Shown here: positions 31,869-60,728 of the stretch, in pieces
Numbering within the stretch: the first letter of the stretch is position 1
Layout: each line of letters starts with the position of its first letter
Source of the DNA: Tachypleus tridentatus
Taxonomy: Eukaryota; Arthropoda; Merostomata; Xiphosura; Limulidae
DNA: 64,000 bases
Direction of reading: 5' to 3'
NCBI RefSeq assembly: GCF_004210375.1
Contig: NC_134835.1
Span: forward strand, 68,974,447 to 69,038,446
The notes under the pieces: generated by a model
The model's database searches: none
Seen by the model: the letters and a program-made list of their open reading frames with translations, nothing else
Told to the model about the DNA's origin: nothing
Translations under genes and position numbers: made by a program

Positions 31869-34023
31869 AAAAATTCTCTAGTACAGTTCCAATAAAATTA
31901 GTATATAGTCAAGACAATTCAAGCATGTATATTAACTACTGTGTCAAAGTGTTCTATTTTTGAGTCACTGTCTCAACATTTTTAAGAGGGTAAAACACCC
32001 TTTTCTCGAAAACAGATTCATGACTTAAAGATGCATGGAAGTGACCTAAGAATTTATACACAAGCCTCAAAGTGAATGTTTAAAATATAATACATTTTCA
32101 GTATTAACATTAACATGATCAAGATTGTATTATTGTTATTTTTACAGTATAACCAAAGTAAAATACACTTGCACATGTTACAACATGTGACTAAACTTTA
32201 AGAACAGTGTTTTCATGACATTGACTAATATCTATCAAAAGAATCACTGGCTAAACTTTTTCTGAAATATGTATACTGGTTGGTGTGTCACAACTGCATT
32301 TTGTCAAGGCAACTATCACATTTGTTGTTTATTAATGGTAGGAAAACAAATGAACATGGTGAACAATACTTATGATCATTTCTATAATATTATACTGAGC
32401 TCAAGGTATCAATTATTTCCACATTTAAAAACGAGATAATGAGAGTTATGTAAAATAAATGTTTAGACTAAAAAGTCTTAGCAAATATTTTGTTAGTATC
32501 AGAAGATTTATATCTGGACCTTAAAAGTACTTTTTACAGACAGACAGCCATCTTAATGTTAAGCACACATGCATAAAAAATTAATGAAATTTGTCTATTA
32601 ACCCTCCATTACAAGTGGGTCAAAGTGCATGTTCCAACCTTTTACAGAGTTTTTACAATATAATTAAGCTACTTTATAATGATTCTATACAAATAAACTT
32701 GACATCAAAACATAGCTAATAAATTATACATTAATATTCTATAAATTTTAAGTTCTTATTTCAGAGAGAAATATTTTTAAAACAATCTTCTCTAGTATGA
32801 AAATTGTGATATTTGTTCTCTCGGTCCTCCCCACTTCTATAATTTATTTACCACTTATCTAAGAAATATAGAATTTAACATACTTATATTGTCTAGTTAC
32901 TAAAGCAAAATAATCTTTACATCCCTCAATCTTATTTGTTTACAAGTCATAAATCGGAAAATTAGACCTACTTACCATACCCGCCTGTCACATTCTCTTC
33001 CAGAAATTATCTGCATTTTTCTGACATTTTATACTATATTATTTATAACCAATAGGAAACCAAGGTATTAGTCTATCAAATGACATATTATATTATGTTG
33101 TTTTATGTTCAGATTATTACTCACTTCATCTCTAGTTTGAAACTGTATCTCGCAGTTTTCAGACTGACAAACTTAAGGTGAGACTTAACAGCTCTTATGC
33201 TAAAATTAGAAGGCCACAAAAATGATGATGCTTACAGGGCACGGTTTGCCTCATACATGTTATTATTCTGTGTTTATAAATGCACTTTTTGAATAAATAA
33301 AAACTATTTATTATACTAGTGTCATTAGAGTAAAAAGCAAGCTTAAGTTTTATTGACAACTTGTAACAAAAAAAAAAGAAAAAAGCTACATGCAAGTGTT
33401 ATATTTCTTGTTTTTCTTCTATACTCTTTATTTATTATTATAAAATACGATGTAAATATCAGAAAATTATTAGGTCAGGTTCGGTAAGGTATTTAAGTAA
33501 TTATAAAAATTTTCACAAGGTATGCTTGTTAACAGCTTGCATGTCACATAAATACTGTAACATCAGCTTGACCTTTCCTGAGTGATATTAGAATTGTGTT
33601 ACTGAAGTATTAGTTTGACATCAAAGGTCAATAAAATTAATAATAAACAGGTGTATATTGCTATGAGTTTTAACATAAACAACTAGTATGCAGTTCAATT
33701 AGCAATCATTAAAAAACATTGTATTTCTTATATTCATGCAAAAATTTTCAGTAAAAATGTTTAAGTAAAAAACCTGATGTTTTGTGTACAATATATTTGA
33801 AATTTTTAACAAAAGCTTAACAAATTTTGTGAAACTATTATAAAGACACTCTGTCACTTTGGGATCACAAGGTTGGGTAATCTACCAATACTGAAGGGAG
33901 AGGGTTAAATGAAAATTATCTTTCTATAAAAATTTAATGTTGTGCTCCAAAAACTAGTTAATTATTTACTACTTCGTTTATGGATAGTATTCTAAACTGA
34001 CCTATGAAACAGCATCATCAGCA
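31869..34023. other. FIS1 3' flank and probable 3' untranslated region
   Basis: AT-rich. Overlapping AATAAA-type signals on the minus strand near 33427-33436 and 33305-33313 could end the FIS1 transcript about 0.6-0.7 kb after the stop codon. No other gene is seen. Confidence 0.4.
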
Positions 34024-34112
34024 TCACTTTTTGGATAGAGCTACTCCAAGACCCACTAATCCACCAAGAGCAATGGCTGCTCCTCCAACAATGGCCATTC
34101 CCATTAAACCTT
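34024..34112 (-). CDS. FIS1: FIS1 coding exon 5 (tail anchor)
   Basis: The exon has 89 nt. It completes Glu121, then encodes a Gly/Ala-rich hydrophobic segment and a short basic end, SKK, before TGA. This is the usual tail-anchor layout of FIS1. Confidence 0.92.
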
Positions 34113-37100
34113 CTACAAAACAGAGATGTTACATGTGATAATTATTCATATTTAAAGATATGTTTCAAATATAACAATTTTTAGCTACCAGAAGGGTAAA
34201 GCAAAAACAAATAATGTAGAATATATAGAATACAAACTGTATCTTAATGAACTAAGTTTAAATCAAAAGACTCCATATTATTAATTATAATTATCTAATG
34301 TGATGTAACAAAAAATGACAGATATACACAACTATTTTAAACTATTATTAACAATTTTCAATTAAATTTAAGACACTGAGAATAAATGGATATATTACTG
34401 GTACAGTATGACCACTAAAAATATATGGTATTCTTCTGTTAATATAACTGTCACTTCCATCCTCCATGTATCAGAATTTAAAAAATTTCATTAACAGAAA
34501 ATCTTTTAGTGTAACATTTTGCTACCAAGATAGAAAATATATTGCATAAAATGAGTATTTCAGTATAACCTTTGTTCATTCGAGGCAAAAATAACTTTTG
34601 CAAGGTTTTTTTTCCTGTTGAAACAATTTAAACAAGTGTAACTGTAGTGAGCTTATTTGTTTAAAAGTTAAGCACAAAGGTACACAATGGGCTATCTGTG
34701 CTCTGCCCACCACAGATATAAAAATGCAGTTCATAGCATTGTAAGTTCACAGACATACTACTGTGCCACTGGGTGCTACAGTGTGCAAAAGAACAATCCC
34801 AACATGAAACAGAAAACTCCGTCTAGTTACCCTTCCTACCAGATATAAAAAAAAAAGGTTGTAAAAGTGATTCTTGTGCTGGTATTTATTGCTACACATC
34901 ATTATTTGTAGACTTTATGTAATGCTGTTAAGATATAGGTTATAAACATATAGATAGCTTTTAACTTCAGTACATCATTCTTCAGAGCATGTTAATAACC
35001 ATTAAGAATAATTGTTACTAATACATTGTTGAAATTGTGTGCAACAAATTTTATGATAATTAGTGTATGTATAAATATTTAAAAGAAATACAGATGAATT
35101 TTCTTTACCAAATAAAAATCATTCAGTTTTATATCTGTCATAATCTGCTCACTCTGATTTTAGCAGAAGTTTATTTGGATGGCTTTAAAGAAACAGGTCT
35201 CTCATCTGCAGATGTAAAACCAAGTTTTTATACATGTTATGTTAAAGAGAATTTTGTTATCTGGCCAACAGTCATGAAAACTTATCAGCCTTTCTCAAAC
35301 ATCTTAATTCCATAAAAAAAAATCACTTCACCATGGAAATAGAGAAACAAACAGCCAACCATTTCTTGATATACTCATCAACAGACAAAAGAATTACTAC
35401 GACTACATACGTTTCCACTGTCTACAGAAAACCTACCCACACTAACAGATACCTACACTTCCAGTCCTATCATCCAAACTCAGGAATATGTAGTATAATT
35501 TAATACCTGAACAACAGAGCTGAAATATCCATCCCAACAGAATGCCAAAACACCATCAAGCATTTTAAATAAAATGCTGTACCTTTATCTGCTTCACCAA
35601 TTCCTTAATGATAATAATATAAAACAAAAGGCAAGGAGAACAATATTACACTATTTACCTCCCCTACATGAAAAACGTAAGTGGAAGACTCTAATGTATA
35701 GCTAAGAAACTCAATACAGATGCCTTCTGAAAACCTTACAAAACAATAACAATTTTCCTGGTCAAAACTAAACAGAAACACAAAAATGTAATTATGAAAT
35801 CCTGTGTTCATGTAACAAAACCTACATTGGAGAAATGAGAAGATAACTTAGAACAGTAATAAAAGGACATGAAGACAGCATAAGACCAATGAAAACACAG
35901 AATTCAGCCACTGCAGGACATACTTTGAATTCACACATCATGGGCATTTTAAACACTAAACCACTCCTGACCTAAATATCTAATTAGACTTAAAGAATAT
36001 TACAAAAAATGTATATTAAAATGATAACCTTACCTTTCCTCATACGACTCTTGATATATGCTTCTAATTCTTGAGCCTGTCGATTTGCTGGCTCCACTGC
36101 AAGGAAGTTTTTCACTTATCTTAGAGCAGTGTTATATTCCTAAGAGAATATTTACAAGATTTTATTATCTCCAAAATCTTTATTTCTTCCATGTATCATA
36201 TCTAAAAATAAATATTTTTTGGATCAATTGTAGAACAGTTGTTGTTAACAGTTGAAAAAAATAATTCCAACTGAAGATGACCTAGAAAGGTCGAAACATT
36301 CTCTGCTTATCAATAAAAATGTTAATACCCACATCAGTCATTCTGAAATATATAAGATGGTATTAATTACTCACCAGTAGATTACACACTATTTATCAAG
36401 AACATAAAATGAGCGCACAAGCCAACCCAGTAACAAGAACATATTGTGTCAACGATTTTCTACCACAATCACTTGAAAATCAATACCTAATAGTAATATT
36501 TTGCCATAAAATTATTTCCACTTAAAAAAAATGAAAGATTATATGGAAATGTGAAGCAGTATCAGAACCTATTAATAAAAAAGTACCTAAATTTTAAATG
36601 TTTATATAAGAATAGATTATTAATTTCATGATGTAAATAAGTAACTTAACACTCCTACGTAAACTGGGGCCTTTTGGCCTTCAGATCATGTTGCAAAGAC
36701 AGTAAATTCAACAGATTTAAAAAAAGAGCTTTATAACAATATGTACAATAAGGGCTGGTTTTTTGGTGTGTTTTTTTATTATTCAATAGGTTTTGTCAGA
36801 GCTAAAGTCTGATCTTTTGCTTCAGGACTACAGAAAAAAAATGATTTGTATTATAAGCATTTCAGTCAGGAAAAACAAAAAAAAACTTATACAGATCTAA
36901 AAGATTTTTTGACAATGTTCTCCTTACATTTTTGGCATTGTAGAAGAATCTTTAAATGCACATCTCAGTAATAACAAATCAAATATATTTCTTTACTTTA
37001 CCTTCAACTTTGTATTTCCTACTCCTAGATAAAACAAGTAGTCACGTTTGGCTTTCTCATCTCCATGTGCAAAAAGATCTATAACAAGATAAATATTAAT

Positions 37101-43100: not shown

Positions 43101-46100
43101 CAAGTAGTCACTTGCCATCCTTTCTGCCAACAAGGGAAGTAGAGACTGATGTAATAGGAGAGACCCCCATAACCTCATAAAAAGGTTTGGTTTACCACTG
43201 TAGTAGAAACATTAGCTCAGGAATTCATACCCATTGGTATGGGTTTTTTGTTGTTGTTGTTGTTGTTCAGTAACTTATAAATATTAACAAAGAAATAACA
43301 GTAAAAATATCAATCATGTTCAAATTCACTACATAAACAGTTAATAATCACAACACTCCTGTTGATAGAAACCCATACCAAATGCTTTGTTGAGGAAAGT
43401 CATTATTTGAATGGGGTATTTAACAGTACCTAAATTTAAGGTTCAATGAAGTTGCAGAAATTTGCAAATTAAAATTTGCCTAAGGCATTCAAATGAGATG
43501 CAAGGCTAGAGCAAGTATTCTCAATGTTTATATGGGCAAAGAAAAAAACCCCTGGAGTTTGAGAAGTAGCTATAGTGCCAGAGGATGTTAAATATGTTTT
43601 GAAAAGAATATTTCTATATTTAACATAAAAATCAACTTGCATTCAAACAATTCAGAGTCTGAGTGCAAATAACTACAATAAACAGATGAAAAATTTTATG
43701 GGAAATACTTGATAAAAACAATCTCATTCGTAGTATACAAAATATCTGTAATCTTTAACAAACTCCTCAGTCTTTATGAAGATGCATTAAGAAAGCTCAG
43801 AGTTGTCATAAATATTGTTTAACTGTGTAGCCCCCAGTAGTTTTACACAAAATTCAGAAATAGCACTTTCTATTTATTGCTGATAAACAGAAATTTTCAA
43901 AAAATCAATTTTTTTTGTAATATAGATTATAAATTTCTTGAAAACTATAGATTAACTTCTAAGAAACTAAAAACCAATGAAATGAACAAGTTGAATAATT
44001 ATAACTATATACAATTTAATAGGAAAAAAAATACAAACCTTCTAAAAGAACCACTCCTCTTCTAATGTCTGCAGGATAACGACTGCGAATAAGACACCAT
44101 GCGTATTCAAACTGTGTTTTAGATGTCAAATTTCCATGTTTCAGCTGATTATGATACAACTTTTCAAATTCCTAATATAAGAAAAGATCATATTTAATAT
44201 AACTTTTTGTACATTTAATGAAAATACTTTATAACAATTTATTAGTATTTTGGATTTAACTTCAGAAAACAGGTTTATGAATAGCATCTTATACATTCAG
44301 TATTTAAGGTAATGTCCACCAAAGTTACTATGATATCTACAAATACAAACAAACTAAGCTTAACGTAAACATTTAAATATCTAAAACTATTCAAAAGAAA
44401 TTAAAAATTATTCAGTCTAAAAGAACATGCATATTACCAGGCAAAACTTACAGAAGGTTTATAACTATAAACAAAAAAAAAGTAAAGATGAAGTCCACAT
44501 TTCAGCTTCCAAAGCTTAAATCTGCTAGACTTGATATCAAGTTTATACTCACAATATTTTTAACTTATTCTACTCTTCAGAGGAGTATCATTCATATTTT
44601 CAAGCCTTTTAGAATCCTCAAATTTTTTAAACAATGAATTTTAGTGGCCTATTTCTGTACTCTTCCTAGCATAACATCTGTATGTATAGTAATCCAATAA
44701 AGCTATACATAAGGCTCACCATAATTTTATTCAAGATTATTATATTACCCTGTAATTCAAAATTTGTATAAGTAAATCCTTAAATTCTAGTTTACTCTTT
44801 CAGTAAAACTAAACACAGCTCCTAGCTTTAATCACTAATCTCATGATTATATACCTTTGTGCATCACTTTACACTTTGTAATATCAAAGCTCATCTTGAA
44901 CATTTTGGCTATTAACCAAGGTGGTTTGGTCCCTTCTGAATAAACATCTCAAGTGTCCCCCAATTATGTAATTGTATTACCAACCTAACTTTAAACTACT
45001 ACATTCTGTTTCAGTCCTCTTTATAAAAATAATGTTGTAATAGCAAATTGAAGGATAATTCTAAGACACTGAAACTGAAAGAAGAAGCATGTTTGAACTG
45101 TTTTTTTTTTTTTAAGTATACAAGAACATAGCAGATTTAGGTATTTAAACTGCAAAAGAGTTACGTTGTACACTTTCTGAGGGTAATCTGTTTTCATGGT
45201 AAACTAAAAAGGTTCAAAATGCAAATTTTAATACTATTTTTAGTTTAGTCATAAACTTGTGAAATGGTTTATCAAATCATCTATGTAGTAAAACTGAATT
45301 ATTTTAAAACTTTATTGGATAAACCTATAAACTGAATGACTTCATTTAATTTGGAATTTATATTCTAATTGTTTCCATTGTTAAGATATGATTCATTTAA
45401 TTTAAAATTTATATTTTAATAGTTTCCATTGGTAAGATATGACTTCATGTTATTTTTGGAAAACAAAACACAGAAAAGTAAAAATTTACAAAAGAACATT
45501 ATAGAAAACGTATTTATCCCTTCATACCCCAAAAGCATCACAAACTTTATAAGGATAACAACATGCTAAAACAGGTATTAAAAAAGTTATTACTACTATT
45601 TTAAGAAAGTTTAACAATGGGGAGGTTAAAACTAGTATTTTTAACTACTGGAATGAAGAATCAATTTTATTCACGTGTTCAAAAGTTCTAAAGAGCTTAA
45701 AGAAAGTGGTAATTGGTTGGTTGATTGGTGTTTACTGGTGCAAAACAACTAGGCTATCTGCACCAAACTGGTAAAAATAAAAGTAAAATTATTAAAATAC
45801 ATAAACAGGAATCATGTTAAAACAAACCAAAGACCACTTTTGAATTAAAATCTCAGAGTTAAAAATTTAAAAACACAACTGAGGTGGACAGTGTCTTCAT
45901 TGCTAATGACACTGTCAAAGGTGAATCCATGGTAAAAACATGTCTAAAATGATGCCATCACTCATGATCCTAATGATGGCACAGCAGTAAAATGTGGGCT
46001 ATTGTGACTTGAGTATCACACAGATCACAAATTGGTGCATCAGTCCCAAATAAAAGATACTGATGAATTAAAAAACTGTGACCAATGCATAGCCTAGCCA

Positions 46101-49100: not shown

Positions 49101-49903
49101 AAATTACTGGACATAAAAAGAAGCTCATGGAAACATTTTAGTTGAAGAATAAGATAACAAAACATTTTAGTATGTTCTTACTATAGTATAAATTGTTGTA
49201 GCATTTCAAGTTTGTCACTGCTTTTCCACTTAGCTGTTCTTTACATACACGATTCCAAGCTTGTAAACAATAATCATTACTGTTTCACCACAGATTTCTT
49301 ACAAAGCCAAGTATTTTTTGTTAAAATAACAGAATGTATCACAATGTAACTTCATTTTTAATTTGATTTTACATCGAAAACGCATTAAAAATGTAAATAA
49401 TCATACTACTGCTTAGAAATATCTTTATCGTCATCATAAGAAAAGAAACACGCTTAATTTAAGGGATAAGTTACTGTCAATACCATAGCTTGATATTTTC
49501 AAATTACAGTTAAAAATTATAAATGAAACGGAATGGTTGTTCTGATCTTGAAAATCTACTTAACTAGTTACACTTAGCCAGCGAACACAGCATAGAAAAA
49601 AACACGCTAAGATATTCATTATACTAGTAGATTTGAGCCAAAATATTCCAAGTCATTATGAAATATACAGGGTTAGGCACTTTCACCCCGGCTCATAACT
49701 CATGTATGTCCTGAATTTGTTCAACTTTCCCATGAGTTTTCTGGTGGCTTATTGCGAAAGATTTTACAACAGATTTATCTTTTTTCTTACGAAATACAAA
49801 TTGGGGTAAAATAATCACTGCTATTAATAGGGTGACATATTTAAAATAATTAATAAACCTTTAAATCATCCGAAGAAACATAATCCTCCAACAAAAGTTC
49901 CAT
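34024..49903 (-). CDS. FIS1: Mitochondrial fission 1 protein (FIS1), five exons, with an in-frame TAA in exon 4
   Basis: Exons are 49903-49859, 44171-44039, 37078-37002, 36139-36034 and 34112-34024 (450 nt, 149 codons plus stop; human FIS1 has 152 residues). The protein matches FIS1 throughout: an N-terminal arm (MELLLEDYVSSDDLK), TPR-like helices with TQFEYAWCLIRSRYPADIRR (about 37-56) and RDYLFYLGVGN, and a C-terminal tail anchor GLMGMAIVGGAA...GLGVALSKK (122-149). FIS1 is a tail-anchored adaptor on the outer mitochondrial and peroxisomal membranes that takes part in organelle division. All splice sites are GT/AG and every phase agrees. The oddity is codon 93: TAA (36118-36116) where relatives have Tyr, which would give 92 residues without the membrane anchor. 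Candidate poly(A) signals lie near 33427-33436. It may be a recent pseudogene, a null allele or an assembly error. Confidence 0.88.
34655..34780 (-). repeat. SINE of a second family
   Basis: On the minus strand it reads CCCAGTGGCACAGTAGTATG, a decayed tRNA-like body and GTGGTGGGCAGAGCACAGAT, then AGCCCATTGTG. It is a distinct tRNA-like SINE from the CTCGTAA-headed family. It lies in FIS1 intron 4. Confidence 0.6.
35160..36000 (+). mobile_element. Penelope-like retroelement remnant: reverse transcriptase end plus GIY-YIG endonuclease
   Basis: In order on the plus strand: a decayed polymerase catalytic block (FYTCYVKENFVIWP, where the family has YVDDTFVIWP) near 35226-35270; FTMEIEKQTANHFL; TTTYVSTVYRKPTHTNRYLH followed by FQSYHP (35397-35470); then degraded YLPYMK..SGRL and an endonuclease block corresponding to CSCNKTYIGE..RRKLRTRIKEH and NSA..H...H. 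Stops and frameshifts are frequent, so it is inactive. The remnant ends about 34 bp from FIS1 exon 4, on the opposite strand. Confidence 0.8.
36034..36139 (-). CDS. FIS1: FIS1 coding exon 4, containing an in-frame TAA
   Basis: The exon has 106 nt with acceptor TTAG and donor GTAAGG. It reads EYNTALR, stop, VKNFLAVEPANRQAQELEA. The stop (36118-36116) replaces the Tyr of the KYVRGLL-like helix. The AG at 36103-36102 could serve as an alternative acceptor beyond the stop, but it shifts the frame and reaches another stop. Nothing else in the exon looks decayed. Confidence 0.88.
36271..36328 (+). ncRNA. Hammerhead-ribozyme-like motif of a Penelope-type terminal repeat
   Basis: CTGAAGA (CUGANGA core) is followed by TGACCT, an AGAA loop, AGGTC and GAAAC, giving a 5-bp stem II and the GAAA core. 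ACATT (36296-36300) can pair with AATGT (36318-36322) as stem III, followed by TTA as a possible NUH cleavage site. Hammerheads in Penelope-like element repeats are established. I could not see a good stem I, so activity is doubtful. Confidence 0.5.
37002..37078 (-). CDS. FIS1: FIS1 coding exon 3
   Basis: The exon has 77 nt. It completes an Asp codon, then encodes LFAHGDEKAKRDYLFYLGVG and NTKLK, equivalent to the family's RDYVFYLAVGNYRLK helix. It ends in phase 0 at donor GTAAAG. Confidence 0.92.
37079..39130. other. AT-rich FIS1 intron 2 sequence
   Basis: No gene or clear repeat is seen. The open frames at 37289-37544 look incidental. Confidence 0.5.
39140..39420. mobile_element. MITE-like element with related inverted ends
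   Basis: The left end reads TATTTCCAATATACTTACC then CTGACACTATAG. The right end reads GTGTCAGCAAAGGTAAGC then TTAATGGAAATACAT. Read inverted, these match in order (ATTTCC, CTTACC, CTGACAC). A G-run of about ten lies just inside the right end. Confidence 0.5.
39425..43640. mobile_element. Large non-coding transposon-like element with related inverted ends
   Basis: The left terminus (TTCCAAAACATACCATCC, then CTGACATCATAGCTAG) and the inverse of the right terminus (TTCAAAACATATTTAACATC, then CTGGCACTATAGCTAC) match in order. The reverse complement of 43461-43590 also matches the MITE at 39181-39300, including GCCTAAGGCATTTGAGT and TATTCTCAATG. The interior is purine-rich and holds no transposase motif that I can see. 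It sits in FIS1 intron 2. Confidence 0.5.
43246..43267. repeat. (TTG)n microsatellite
   Basis: About seven TTG units, near the right end of the large element. Confidence 0.85.
44039..44171 (-). CDS. FIS1: FIS1 coding exon 2
   Basis: The exon has 133 nt with acceptor TTAG and donor GTTTGT. It begins EFEKLYHNQL, carries the highly conserved TQFEYAWCLIRS block, and ends in phase 1 after VVLLE. Confidence 0.93.
44560..45010 (-). mobile_element. CR1-like LINE remnant
   Basis: Segments such as CTACTCTTCAGAGGAGTATC, TAGTGGCCTATTTCTGTACTC and CATCTTGAACATTTTGGCTATT resemble decayed CR1 3' sequence in minus orientation. No frame is open. It lies in FIS1 intron 1. Confidence 0.35.
45338..45440. repeat. 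Diverged tandem duplication, unit about 52 bp
   Basis: GACTTCATTTAATTTGGAAT...TTAAGATAT (45338-45389) is followed by GATTCATTTAATTTAAAATT...GGTAAGATAT (45390-45440). The second unit is one base shorter with a few substitutions. Confidence 0.85.
45712..47037 (-). mobile_element. 5'-truncated copy of the RNase H-bearing LINE
   Basis: The sequence parallels 53061-54685 from the 3' end (ATCAACCAACCAA on the minus strand) through the RNase H part. Minus-strand frames read FSAELYTISLALVHVEAV, FFWIPVHVAICGN-type ends and GTDAPICDLCDTQVTIAHIL. Similarity to the longer copy stops near 47037, just inside GAAGTG. Frameshifts and stops make it inactive. It lies in FIS1 intron 1, in the same orientation as the gene. 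Confidence 0.85.
47040..49858. other. FIS1 intron 1 sequence, partly purine-rich
   Basis: 47040-48400 is A/G-rich and probably old repeat sequence. 48400-49858 is ordinary AT-rich intron. No coding motif is seen. Confidence 0.4.
49859..49903 (-). CDS. FIS1: FIS1 coding exon 1
   Basis: The exon has 45 nt and encodes MELLLEDYVSSDDLK in phase 0. The donor is AAG|GTTTAT. No TATA box was identified upstream. Confidence 0.85.
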
Positions 49904-50329: not shown

Positions 50330-50545
50330 TCCCCGTCACATCAAACATGCTCGCATTTTCATCCGTGAAGGCGTTATAATGTAACGATCAGTCCCACTGT
50401 TCGTTGGTAAAAGAGTTGGCGGTGAGTGGTGATGACTAGCTGCCTTTCCTCTAGTCTTACACTGCTAAATTAGGGACGGCAAGCGCAAATAGCCCTCGAG
50501 TAGCTTTGTGCGAAATTTAAAAAAACAAACAAAAAACAAGCAAAC
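50330..50545 (+). repeat. 5'-truncated tRNA-derived SINE with target-site duplication
   Basis: The element starts inside the tRNA-like head (CCCCGTCACATCAAACATGC) and runs through the core to a CAAA-type tail. GATTATACTATC (50318-50329) and GATCATACTATC (50546-50557) flank it with one mismatch. Confidence 0.88.
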
Positions 50546-51940: not shown

Positions 51941-51955
51941 CCAACAGAATACAGT

Positions 51956-52227
51956 CCCGGCATGGCCAAGCGTGTTAAGGCGTGCGACTCGTAATCTGAG
52001 GGTCGCGGGTTCGCATCCCCATCGCGCCAAACATGCTCGTCCTTTCAGCCGTGGGGGCGTTATAACGTGACGGTCAATCCCACTATCCGTTGGTAAAAGA
52101 GTAGCTCAAGAGTTGGCGGTAGGTGGTGATGACTAGCTGCCTTCCCTCTATTCTTACACTGCTAAATTAAGGACCACTAGCGCAGATAGCCCTAGACTAG
52201 CTTTGCGCGAAATTCAAAACACAAACA
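51956..52227 (+). repeat. tRNA-derived SINE, full length
   Basis: It begins CCCGGCATGGCCAAGCGTG and has the arm GCGACTCGTAATCTGAGG, the B-box-like GGGTTCGCATCC, the core and a CAAAC tail. AACAGAATA occurs on both sides (51943-51951 and 52228-52236), a likely 9-bp target-site duplication. Confidence 0.9.
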
Positions 52228-52654
52228 AACAGAATAATTAATGTGCAGATTTACTTGCAACAGCATGGAAGTTATCACTGTTGAAATACAATGAATGGTG
52301 AAATGATACAAGCTTCAAAGTGTTTGGTCATCTTAATTCATGATTATGGAGAAGAAATGTACTCCATGGGATTTATAAGTGTTTAAGTTAAATGCGTGTT
52401 GTATTATACTTTACATAGTTTATACAGTATAAAAATTATACTTAGTTATTTTTAGAAGATATAGTTTATCATTAATTTTTAGATAACTATTTACGAATTA
52501 TATGTTGAGTTATTCAATATATATGAATTGGTGATTGTTATATTATCGCAGCATGTCACTAAAACCTTCCGAGTTTTAATCTTTTTTTTTAATTAAGTAA
52601 TATTGTATTATAATATCTAGTAATATGTGAAATGTTCTAGACCTTCGTCGTGAT

Positions 52655-52920
52655 GGCCCGGCATGGCCAGATGGTCAAGGCACTCTACTCGTAATTCGAG
52701 GGTCACGTGCTCAAATCCTTGTCACACCAAACATGCTCGCTCTTTCAGCCGTGGAGGCTCACGGTCAATCTCACTATTCGTTGGTAAAAGAGTAGCCCAA
52801 GAGTTGGCGGTGAGTTGTGATGACTAGCTACCTTCCCTCTAGTCTTACACTGCTAAATTAGGGACGGCTAGTGCACATAGCCATCGTATAGCTTTGCGCG
52901 AAATTTAAAACAAGCCAAAG
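52655..52920 (+). repeat. tRNA-derived SINE, full length with a small core deletion
   Basis: The head is GCCCGGCATGGCCAGATGGTC. The core lacks the GCGTTATAACGTG segment between GGAGGC and TCACGGTC. The tail is AAAACAAGCC. Confidence 0.9.
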
Positions 52921-53477: not shown

Positions 53478-56400
53478 TTAAATGGCATTAAAAAGATTAA
53501 TGGCCTTTAAAAAAATAAAAACATTACCAAGGTGGACAGCGTCACCATCACCAATAACACTGTCAAACGTTATGAACAAATTTTGGGACAGAACATGCTT
53601 AAAATGGTGCCGTCGTTGTGAATCATAACGATGACAAGAAAGTAAAATGTGGATCTGAATGTTACACAAACTACACACTGGTGCATCAGTTTCAGATAAA
53701 AGAAAACGATGAGTTAAAAACTGTGACCAATGCATAGTCTAGTTAGAACAACTTCCTCTTTCCGATCCTTACGGGAACAAAACGGCCAAAGTCCAATATA
53801 GGATTTTATTCGGAAAAGCTTGTTTTCGCGTTGCTCACTTCAAGTCGACTACCAGCTGGCACGGAGCCGAGCCTTGAATACAGGCCCATAATCCATGTAT
53901 AGGACAGGCACAGCGGTGATAGTGCCAAAGAAGATAGACTTGGCTGCAGTGTCGGCGAGCTCCTTTCCGCGAATACCAACGTGGCCTGGTATCCAGAAAA
54001 AATGGATAGAAGTAGACGTTAAAGAGAAATGGGCCAGTCAGTTTTGAATATTGGCAAGAACCGAGTGTGAACCAAAGTGAAGCGATTCCAAGGGCCAGTA
54101 GAGAACTAAGCGAGTCAGTATAAATAGTGCAGTTTGAATACTACTTAGCTTCTATATGATCCAGGGCAAGAGAAATGCCATACAGTAAAGCAATAAACAC
54201 AGAAGCTGTAGAGTGGATTCTGCGCACAACCACCGAACCACAACAAACCATGGCAGAGCCCACACAATCACCTGATTTCGAACCATCTGTATAAATGAGA
54301 ATGGAAGGATGGTTTGAAAGATGTTCAGCAAATAGCAGACAGTATTTCTAATCAGGAGTGTCAACTTTTCTCAGATGACTTAAAGATAGATCACAACTGG
54401 GGACTGTAAGAAGCCATGGTGAAATGAACTGACCAGTGGGTACAGCAATGTTATCCAAGGAAAGACCCAATTCATCTAACTGTGCCTGGATACGAAGGCC
54501 AAAAGGAGCAATGGCAGACTGTCTGATCTGAAAAAGTATGGCCAATCGAGGAAGGAAAACACAACCTCAGGTGAGATGCTTTGGTAAGGAACGAGTTTCG
54601 AAGCATATAATAAAGACAGTTTCAAACAGCGGAGGTGCAAAGAAGGTTCATGAGACTCTATGTATAAGCTCTGAACTGGAGAAGTGCAGAAAGCCCCAGT
54701 ACAGAGCCAAAGTCCTTGATGATGAATAGGGTCTAGCATCTTTAAGGCTGAGGGTCTGACAGAGCCATAGACCATTGATCCATAGTCGAGTTTTGAACGA
54801 ATAAGAGCACGATATATCTTTAGTAAAGAACGTCGATCCGCTCTCCAAGTGGTGGAAGAGAGGACACGGAAAATGCTCAGTGTTCTTGTACATTTCACCC
54901 GTAGCTGCCTTGATGTTTGGTAGAAAGGTTAGCTTACGGTCAAAGATAAGCCCCAAGAACTTAGTCTCAGAGACTACAGGCAGCATAACTTCACCGATAC
55001 GGAGTTCAGGATCAGGGTGAATACCACGGTGGCGGCAAAAGTGCATGCAAACGGTTTTAGAGAGAGAGAAGGTAAAGCCGTTTGCTGTGGTCCACTTCAG
55101 CAAACAATTGAGGGCATTCTGTAGCTGCTGTTCAATATACCTCATGTTCGACGACTGACATGAGATGTGAAAGTCGCCGACTTAGAGCCCGTTTGCAACA
55201 ATGAGAGGGAGTTGTTCAGTGATAGCATTAATTTTTATACTGAAAAGTGTGACGTTCAGAATACAGCCCTGAGGGACTCCAAGTTCCTGTAAAAAAGAAC
55301 GGGAAAGTGTCGAACCCATACGAACTCGGAATCTCCTGTCCATTAAACAAATTTCAATAGAAATGAGCAAATGGCCACGTGACACATATATATGGAGGTC
55401 TCGCAAAATGCCATACCTCCATGTTTTATCATAAGCATTCTCAATGTCAAAGAATATTGATACAATATGTTGTTGTTTGAGAAAGGCTTATCTGATTGAC
55501 GTTTCAAGTCGAATCAGATGGTCCATGGTGGAACATTGTCGCCGGAACTCACACTGGGTGGGCGAGGAGGTTGTTTGATTCGAGGAACCAAACAAGACGA
55601 GCATTAGCCATCCTCCCTAAGGTCTTACAGAGACAGCTCGTCAAAGCAATTGGATGGTAGATTGAAGGAATCTTGGGATCCTTCCCAGGCTTCGAAACAG
55701 GCAGAACAATAGTCTGGCGCCAGGCATCAGGAAAAACATTCTCTTGCCAGATCCGGTTAAAAACAACCGGAAGGATAGCACGAGAAGCAGGAGATAGATA
55801 GCGCAGCATCTCATAGTGTATATCATCAGGTCCAACCGATGTACTGCCAGACTGATGAATGGCCGGTTTGAATTCCACCAGTGTAAAGAGACGATTATAA
55901 TCATAGAGACAATTAGCTCGAAAGGAAAGAGGTGACTGCTCTGCTCGAGGCTTGATGGTCAAGAAGGTGGAACAAGAGGCAAAAGTGCTAGATACCTGGC
56001 AAAAGCTTTCACCTAGAGTATCGGTGATGCTCTGGGTATTAGTTACTTCCTGGCCATCAGAGAGCAAGATCGAGAGGGGGATAGAGTGATATTGCCCACT
56101 GACCTTTCGAATCTTGTCCCAAATGATTTTGGAACTGGTGGTATAGGATATGCTGGTTGTGAACTAAATCCAAGATTCCTTCTGGCTTTGACGTCTTACC
56201 CATCAAGCATGTGCACGGGCCCGTTGAATAGCGATGCGGTTCGAAAGTGTGGAATATCTACAGAAGTATCCCAGGCTTGTTTTTGAGCCTTCCGTGCCAT
56301 GTGGCAGGTAGGATTCCACCATGGACGAGAATATAGTGGAAAACGTGTCGAGGTTTTAGGAATACATTGAGGAACTGCTTGTATAATACAGTCAGTTACT

Positions 56401-57183
56401 GCTGCCACACAGTCGTCTATTGATGGCTCACAGACGATGGCAGGATCAAGTTCTGTGAGAGCAGTGAAAGAGGGCCAGTTTGCCTGATACAGCTTCCACC
56501 GGAGCAAGCGGGTCGAGTGGCATCGACCGCCGCGGCTAGTCTCTCTCAAGATTATAGGAAAATGATCACTACCTCGTGGATTATTGTCAACACTCCATGA
56601 AAAATGGGAAAATAATGAAGGGGAGGAAATTGAGAAATTAATAGCAGTAAAGGACTGACTAGGTGCATGGAAATAAGTATAAGAACCAGTATTTAAAAGA
56701 AAAGGTTGTGATCAGAGAGCATAAGCTCTACAGAGCGACCCTCTTATCAATACCAGCACTTCCCCAGAGGGGACGATGCCCATTAAAGTCCCCCAGGATT
56801 AAAAAGGGAGACAGCAACTGTTCAATGAGAGCATCAAGGTCTGATTGATCATATGTATCTCCAGGTGACAGATATAGAGAACAAACAGTGAGAGTAAAAC
56901 CAAAGAAAACACGGATGGCTACGGCCTCCAAGGGTGTGTCGAGTGGCAAAGACTGGGTGAGCCCATGCTGATCAACTAACAGTACCACCCCACCATGCAC
57001 TCGTCCATCACACAGCCAGTCATTTCTGTATGAAGAAAACCGCCGAAAGGTGACTGTATCGGCAGGTTTCAAAAATATTTCCTGTAAGAAAAGACAAAGA
57101 GGATGGTAGTAAGTAATCAAGGCTTTGATGTCATCCAGATTAGAAAGTAAACCTTGACAGTTTCTTTGTATCAGAGTGGCCAT
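53478..57183 (-). pseudogene. LINE ORF2 (endonuclease, reverse transcriptase, RNase H), interrupted
   Basis: Its ATG at 57183 lies two bases after the ORF1 stop. The endonuclease shows LQEIFLKP, ILGDFNGHRPLW and, near 56560, SDHFPI, so its catalytic Glu, Asp/Asn and Asp-His residues are largely kept. The polymerase shows TSVGPDDIHYEML, then IWQENVFPDAWR and ELGVPQGCILNVTLFS. The catalytic YVDD box at 55184-55173 reads stop-V-G-D. RNase H and the C-terminal DAPVCSLCNIQIHILLSCHR cysteine-histidine motif lie at about 54350-53478. Several frameshifts break the frame. It cannot encode an active polymerase. Confidence 0.88.
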
Positions 57184-57185
57184 TT

Positions 57186-58454
57186 TTATTTACGTGTTGG
57201 CGAATTGGGTTGAGAACCCTTCTGCTTACGAATTCGTCTTTTTCCTCACTTTTCTTATTCGAGGGAAATCTACTGACTTCCATGGATACTGCCATGGGTC
57301 GATTGGGCAGGTTTTTGCTGTTGGAAGGGTATTCCAGAGACTGAGGACGTGAACGAATAATTGTTTTGCATCTTGGGGTGAGAGAGGAAGATGGATCCGA
57401 GGTAATCCCTGTACCTGGAACTAAAGGATGTGGATCTTGGGGTTTGGTGGAATGTATGTAAGGGACAGAGATAGGTGTCGAAGTTGATTCATCAACTTTT
57501 TTAACCATAGAGGTCAAGAGAATTTTTATTTGTTTGGATAACGATTCTTTAGGAGGCACAGAGAGATCTGTCTGCGCTCCCACAGTAGTTGTGGAATGAA
57601 ATGCAGCAGCATACGTCCGAGATGAGGTGGTGAACAGCAATTTTCAAGCCTCAGAATAGGTAATGTTATGATCGTTTTTAAACGCTGCACCTCTTCTTCT
57701 TCCGACCATTCAGAGCAAGAACGAAAGTATGAAAGGTGAGAGCCATTGCAATTGATGCAATGAGGGTCCGTTTCACACTCATAGGCATCATGGTACTTGA
57801 CACTGCAACGAGCACAGGTCAAGGAGCCACGACATAACATCTTCGAGTAACCGAACCGTTGACACTGGAAACATCGGAGAGGGTTTGGAATGTATGGCCG
57901 TACTCTGCAATTAAGATAACCTGCCTTGATGGTAGCAGGCGGACGTGGTGACATAAATGACATAATAAGGACATTGGTCGGCACCATAATTCCATCTTTG
58001 CGAGTGGAGATATGCCTCACTGGAGAATCTCCTTGTGTGGGAAACCAGCGAGAATCTCCAACTCTGGGATGTTCTTCAAATCCTTCTCAACAATAACTCC
58101 TCGTGATTAATTCAAAGTAGCATAAGGTGTAACGTCAATAAGTATATCCCCAATTGCCTTTGAATGCAACAGGAGTTCACTGTGTTGATATGTGGATGTT
58201 TCCACCAATATGTCACCAGATCGAAGCTTTTTTATTGACTCTGGAGAGCCAGCAAGTCCTTCTAGTCTCTTCTAAATGAAAAAAGGAAGACATTTGCCCT
58301 AAAGGTTTGTCAGAAAGTGAGTGTAATATAAGAAAATGAGGTACAACAGGTGGTACAGATGGTGAGGATTGCTACTCAGAATCTTCAAAACGTGGTCGTT
58401 TACCTATAGACTGTTTTTCACTATTTTATTAAGATTTTTAATTGCAGTATCCAT
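57186..58454 (-). pseudogene. LINE ORF1 (gag-like zinc-knuckle protein), interrupted
   Basis: It starts MDTAIKNLNKIVKNS, then meets early stops. Later blocks read SIKKLRSGDILVETS, RGVIVEKDLKNIPELEI and RISTRKDGIMVPTNVLIM. The zinc-knuckle region follows: CFQC...GYSKMLC, where the first knuckle has Tyr for His, then CARC...HDAYEC intact, then CINC..SH. The end reads GSQPNSPTRK before TAA at 57188-57186. At least one frame change lies near 57530-57640. In this family ORF1 binds the element RNA; here it cannot be made whole. Confidence 0.85.
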
Positions 58455-59254: not shown

Positions 59255-60365
59255 ATGCTGACTGATTTTGATAAATGGATAGAAAGGAGTGAGCGACTAA
59301 AATAAGACACTTTTCGAGAGTTTGTTTCACAACAACAAGACCAAGTGAGACAAGAGCATCAACAGAGAAGAGATGAAGAATATGAGAAAAAGAAAAGGAA
59401 AGAGATAATGAGAGCACAAATTAAGAAAGAAGCAAATAAGAGAATGAAAGAAAAGATAATAAAAACAGAAATTGCGAAAGAAGAAAAGAATAGAGAGAAT
59501 GCTTTCCTAAAGAGATTTGAAAGATTTGCTCAAAACATAACTGGGGCAAAGATGATGGGGCAGTCTATCTCAATCTCCCTTAAACAGGAAAGTTCATGGA
59601 GAAATGATATCAGAAGATGTCATTTACTATAACAAGTTAAAAGTGAAATATTATAAGCTTACTGAGGAAGGTTTTCTCGTTGGAAGTTCAAAGAACTCAA
59701 AACTAAAAGTGTATTTCAGTTTGTGGCACATCTATGGCGATGCTTCACAAGGTGGACTAACATGTCCAAGTGTGAAAATAGTTTTGAAATCGTTGCAGAT
59801 CTACAAGTACCTGAACAGTTGATGATCACATACTCAACTGACACGTCGTTGGTCCTTAAAGAAAGAGCACCAAAAGACGTATACAAGATTATCAATCTTG
59901 TAGAACGGTATATGGAAGTCCTTGGGGGTTAACTTGCAAGCCCAATAATAACTAGTCAAAGTTAAAACCAGAGATCTCTGACCAGAGGTATAATGCCACC
60001 AAAATGACAAGAAGATGACGAATAAAAGCAGAAGAGATGTTATACTTATTATAATATGAAGAACATTACAAATAATTGCAAGTCTATCACCATCAAGCTA
60101 CAGCAAAAATCTAAACATAAAGTAGTTGGAGCTGCCCATAAATATGATGCTGGAAAGAAAGAAAAAAAGAGGGACTGTAACCATGGATAATGCTGCCAGA
60201 AGAAACCAAATGGAGACAACACATAAGATTCCCCACAAGCAAAAAGTGTAACCATCACGATTACACAGTGCATGATTGATGGTCAGCTCAAGTTATCAAA
60301 TGGGCCAACAGTGCGTGTGGTAATTGGAGCCTATGATAAACTTCAAGAGGCTGCCAGCAAACTTT
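59255..60365 (+). pseudogene. Ty3/gypsy-type gag(-protease) remnant with SCAN-like domain
   Basis: It begins MLTDFDKWIERSERLK, then a stop, then continues in frame into a charged coiled-coil stretch (QQRRDEEYEKKKRKEIMRAQ, 59360-59420). A SCAN/gag-like helical block follows in another frame (SFEIVADLQVPEQLM..LKERAPKDVYKIINLVERYME, about 59774-59920). Beyond it are remnants of a zinc-knuckle linker (KVVGAAHKYDAGKKEKK near 60120) and a segment (MIDGQLKL, VVIGAYDKLQEAASKLL) where the protease would begin. No terminal repeats were identified. Old, inactive fragment. Confidence 0.55.
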
Positions 60366-60655: not shown

Positions 60656-60728
60656 GTTCTTGTGGTGTAGTGGTTATCACATCCGCCTAACACGCGGAAG
60701 GTCCCAGGTTCGAGCCCTGGCAAGAACA
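60656..60728 (+). tRNA. tRNA-Val (anticodon AAC)
   Basis: The 73-nt cloverleaf has an acceptor stem GTTCTTG/CAAGAAC, a D arm with A-box-like TGGTGTAGTGG, an anticodon arm TCCGC-CTAACAC-GCGGA with AAC, and a T arm CCCAGGTTCGAGCCCTGG containing the B box. No CCA is encoded and no intron is present. A TTTTT terminator lies about 10 bases downstream. Unlike the SINE heads, all stems pair, so it looks functional. Confidence 0.95.

Follow-up and report, generated by a model that had tools for sequence, protein, structure and literature searches.

The closest described systems are segregating nonsense alleles, consensus errors of draft assemblies and, among horseshoe crabs, the Unpg-A1 gene of Carcinoscorpius rotundicauda, the pseudogenisation of which is reported, in an extract of PMC7815833, in 9 of 10 animals from Hong Kong. 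The FIS1 gene of Tachypleus tridentatus described here resembles segregating nonsense alleles in having one stop, a conserved remainder and no further decay seen, but differs from them in that a search with its coding sequence finds no second haplotype of the FIS1 exons in the assembly. With consensus errors it shares an isolated change, in an assembly for which redundancy and mis-assembly have been reported (PMC7210998, in extract). It differs in that a base change is found in single-copy sequence, and in that the window, as the 64-kb stretch analysed is called hereafter (C11:68974447-69038446), is devoid of any N. Like Unpg-A1, it is a horseshoe crab gene with a gene-breaking variant; yet Unpg-A1 is a duplicate with paralogues, and its lesion is a deletion (PMC7815833, same extract), whereas FIS1 has no paralogue in the assembly. 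A literature query combining horseshoe crab with fis1 returned no match beyond a review of marine anticancer peptides.

Two features of these genomes form the background of the case. Ancient whole-genome duplications, invoked in an earlier note on this DNA, are indeed reported for horseshoe crabs, two rounds being given in the extract of PMC6390705 and three in that of PMC7815833. The quality of the assembly has in turn been questioned. Table 1 of PMC7815833, in the extract, records T. tridentatus assembly CNA0000821 with 34,966 genes. According to the extract of PMC7210998, 4,855 of the 34,966 proteins predicted from the chromosome-scale assembly of the species have duplicates that are at least 98% identical to them, and no more than two Hox clusters are present, whereas the mangrove species has five; from this the assembly is inferred there to be redundant, mis-assembled and short of many genes.

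The window belongs to an assembly of 2,167,478,450 bases in 205 contigs. The FIS1 model rebuilt from it lies on the minus strand and consists of five exons adding up to 450 nt, that is, 149 codons plus TGA. Exon 1 (49859-49903) begins with the ATG, in phase 0, and is matched once in the genome by positions 1-46 of the coding-sequence query. Exon 2 (44039-44171) hosts the match to the N-terminal Fis1 TPR (PF14852, 59.7 bits). Exon 3 (37002-37078) was retrieved by genome searches with the window protein and the coding sequence, and exon 4 (36034-36139) by PF14853 and window-protein searches; exon 5 (34024-34112), hit by window-protein and coding-sequence queries, encodes the tail anchor and the normal TGA stop. 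Each of the four introns is GT..AG, and exon phases agree. Exon 4 bears an in-frame TAA at codon 93 (36116-36118), a position occupied by Tyr in human (PDB 1pc2) and mouse (1iyg) FIS1, the two proteins compared at this column. With X at codon 93, both Fis1 TPR profiles are matched above their curated cut-offs (PF14852 at 60.8 bits, PF14853 at 77.2 bits), and human FIS1 matches residues 1-142 of 149 (E 3e-46), in an alignment ungapped over these 142 residues. The identity of the gene, its five-exon, 149-codon structure and the replacement of Tyr by TAA, as put forward in the earlier note, are all borne out.

Apart from the stop the gene looks sound. A second lesion was searched for in the coding exons and none was seen, splice sites, frame and tail anchor being whole. 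Counting as strongly dissimilar the replacements that score below -1 in BLOSUM62, residues 94-142, encoded 3' of the stop, are identical to human at 27 of 49 positions and strongly dissimilar at none; the corresponding figures for the 92 residues before the stop are 48 and 8. Conservation is thus no lower after the stop than before it, and the relaxed constraint or additional lesions that mark unitary pseudogenes were not found. The remark of the earlier note that no other decay is seen agrees with these data. Its statement that truncation removes the C-terminal half of the TPR fold together with the tail anchor holds for the anchor, and has to be corrected in degree for the fold. The N-terminal Fis1 TPR lies entirely upstream of the stop, and 22 of the 53 positions of the C-terminal TPR profile precede it; hence more than half of this second repeat (TPR2) is lost along with the anchor, the sequence of which, though encoded in exon 5, is separated from the start codon by the TAA. 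A truncated product would retain 92 of 149 residues (62%). By arithmetic on the exon model, 82 nt separate the TAA from the exon 4/5 junction downstream of it. The usual rule for the position of a stop relative to the last exon junction predicts nonsense-mediated decay in such cases, which is therefore expected here.

FIS1 is probably a live, single-copy gene hit by one private nonsense change, either a null allele or a consensus error. The two alternatives offered by the earlier note thus become the branches of one reading, to which an isolated stop in an otherwise intact gene well conforms. That the sequenced animal carried a null allele is quite possible, if short of an even chance; that the assembly has a wrong base in its consensus is a possible, more tentative, option. 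A single base change in the assembled haplotype would have converted to TAA a codon that almost certainly specified Tyr, and the change would be both private and very young. If the allele is real, its mRNA would probably be degraded by nonsense-mediated decay; alternatively, a soluble fragment of 92 residues, lacking the end of TPR2 and the membrane anchor, might be made. In both cases function would be lost, and a heterozygote would mask the loss. The redundancy and mis-assembly already mentioned (PMC7210998, in extract) speak for an allele or an error. Errors in older long-read assemblies are mostly indels. The change at codon 93 looks like a base substitution, a point against this interpretation, and the assembled sequence holds no direct sign of error at this codon.

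How often conserved genes of this assembly are interrupted by a stop was gauged on two control families searched in the same genome, Cpn60_TCP1 and kinesin. No interior stop was found in the 56 exon matches of Cpn60_TCP1 (4,022 codons); 41 of them are stop-free, and in the other 15, read by eye, stops fall only outside the likely splice sites. In the kinesin listing of 124 exon matches, which span 6,993 codons, there is one interior stop; scoring covered the best 122 of 271 first-look candidates, and may thus favour intact exons. Stop-free matches are 92 of the 124 listed; of the remaining 32, read by eye, 31 have stops judged to lie outside the exon, and one is interior. Three of the 31 calls (L099, L109 and L110) are less sure, the stops being well inside the match, with a likely splice site separating them from the conserved part. 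The interior stop is a TGA between conserved blocks of a motor exon with good splice sites (C4:66660405-66660554, minus strand, L111); this exon has no near copy in the assembly, the next match being 51% identical. Pooled, the controls give one interior stop per 11,015 codons in 180 exon matches listed, a figure in which some intron is included at match edges, and in which, given false duplicates, not all codons are independent. At this rate, derived from the matches listed, 0.014 stops are expected in 149 codons, a rare event for any given gene, and about 470 genes would be hit if all 34,966 were only as long as FIS1; resting on one event, the rate may be many-fold off either way. That the rate is one event, and that Cpn60_TCP1 alone gave none, weighs against an allele or an error. 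The FIS1 stop is not the only one of its sort, and the control figures argue against regarding it as extraordinary.

Variation between haplotypes may be glimpsed at Mff. The search for this gene revealed one locus on contig C3 and two on C12, and C3 and C12 sequences are 79% alike over a 181-nt exon stretch. The C12 copies (C12:76137604-76150200, minus strand, and C12:77361084-77367001, plus strand; L041, L044, L045 and L046) lie in inverted orientation at a distance of 1.2 Mb. Identity between them amounts to 98.5% in one stretch of about 3.1 kb and to 99.3% in another. Most simply, they are read as the two haplotypes of one locus, falsely duplicated within the pseudochromosome. If both haplotypes have been assembled, their base differences, about 0.4-1%, would correspond to haplotype divergence plus error. 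With haplotypes differing to this extent, a null allele in one of them is a natural expectation.

Other explanations must be weighed against a private nonsense change. The earlier note had suggested that a second FIS1 copy may have freed this one, and that a second locus be sought in the assembly. According to this hypothesis, an intact FIS1 born of the genome duplications, of which two (PMC6390705) or three (PMC7815833) rounds are given in extracts of these papers, took over the function. Five genome searches with different queries detected no other FIS1 copy above noise in 2.17 Gb, and the suggestion finds no support. PF14853, at E up to 0.001, matched only exon 4. With PF14852 and an E limit of 10, exon 2 scored 59.7 bits; three additional matches, of 19 bits or less and over 20 residues at most, were taken as noise. 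The window FIS1 protein, at E up to 10, matched exons 2-5 of the known locus only, and the 450-nt coding sequence, used as a DNA query, found each of the five exons once. Mouse FIS1, a sensitivity control, retrieved no sequence other than exons 2, 3 and 4 of the same locus (54%, 47% and 47% identity, respectively); exons 3 and 4 emerged only at E about 3, so that about 47% identity is near the limit. Retrocopies, haplotigs and decayed ohnologs of FIS1 were looked for by profile, protein and coding-sequence searches of the assembly, and none was found. As three other exon pairs in the assembly are 79-82% alike at the DNA level, the searches would be expected to reveal a FIS1 duplicate dating from the genome duplications, provided that it was assembled; Mff and a CCT gene are each present as a diverged, ohnolog-like pair. 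To look for syntenic neighbours within the window, 13 of its 76 ORFs were put to Pfam, and those above cut-off were only a retrotransposon-type endonuclease and a SCAN domain (27.1 versus 27.0 bits), hence no ohnolog block was traced. This FIS1 is the only copy found in the assembly, as expected of a unitary pseudogene, within the limits set by assembly completeness. Although the assembly is reported to lack many genes (PMC7210998, in extract), a second copy in the species is unlikely, and the notion that such a copy released the stop-bearing gene is very improbable.

Being the sole copy found and bearing a stop, FIS1 could alternatively be a unitary pseudogene of recent origin: T. tridentatus, or one population of it, would have lost its only FIS1 and would tolerate the loss as Mff recruits Drp1. 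Mff resides at diverged loci on C3 and C12, Drosophila lacking Fis1 have been studied as adults, in which myopathy and lower survival after eclosion are described (PMC8208795, in extract), and it is disputed what part FIS1 plays in the basal fission of mammals, conditional knock-down in human colon carcinoma cells having left fission unaffected in the experiments covered by the extract of PMC3578726. In the light of all this a FIS1 null allele, or even loss of the gene, is conceivable, probably at some cost. The coding exons show no second lesion, however, FIS1 has been conserved between yeasts and humans and its loss is harmful in flies (PMC8208795, in extract), and the single assembly of one animal cannot establish fixation. 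A very recent species-wide loss would have an identical appearance; overall, we consider a unitary pseudogene unlikely, and it is more doubtful still that T. tridentatus as a species very recently lost its only FIS1, and is a natural animal knock-out living on two Mff ohnologs. An option that can hardly be credited is that the stop is recoded by read-through, by splicing around it, or by double A-to-I editing of UAA into UGG. Full conservation of the part 3' of the stop would suit recoding, and in-frame AGs, possible acceptors, are found after the stop at nt 48, 63 and 90 of exon 4; their use to bypass the stop would remove at least 16 residues of TPR2. Neither full-length protein nor exon-4 DNA queries revealed a duplicate exon 4 in the FIS1 introns or elsewhere in the window. 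RNA folding around the stop shows nothing out of the ordinary (z -1.37, with 19 of 200 shuffles folding as well), and none of the four inverted-repeat pairs in the 33900-37100 interval covers the site. TAA is the tightest stop, and a following G is not known to make it leaky.

A private nonsense change, as an allele or an error, remains the preferred reading. If private or erroneous, the stop calls for caution towards stray stops in conserved genes of this assembly, and claims of gene loss based on it need to be backed by reads. Were the stop fixed, in turn, T. tridentatus would allow the debated question of whether FIS1 is necessary in animals to be tested in nature.

Other elements reside in the window. 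The 54476-58086 interval (minus strand) hosts a decayed non-LTR retrotransposon, with ORFs in several frames; one endonuclease match exceeds the Pfam cut-off, and reverse transcriptase matches fall below it. Three copies of a dispersed repeat (50380-50540, 51950-52230 and 52650-52920) share a common 3' part, and two of them show, by eye, a tRNA-like head; the repeat is probably a SINE of this lineage. The ORF with the borderline SCAN match (59666-59932, plus strand) may be transposon-derived. SCAN domains are unusual outside vertebrates. An additional ORF (35246-35503, plus strand) lies antisense within FIS1 intron 4; it has no Pfam match above cut-off (DIPSY, 16.1 bits versus 25), and by eye is reminiscent of a Penelope-like element. 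A tRNA-Val (AAC) is predicted at 60656-60728 (plus strand).
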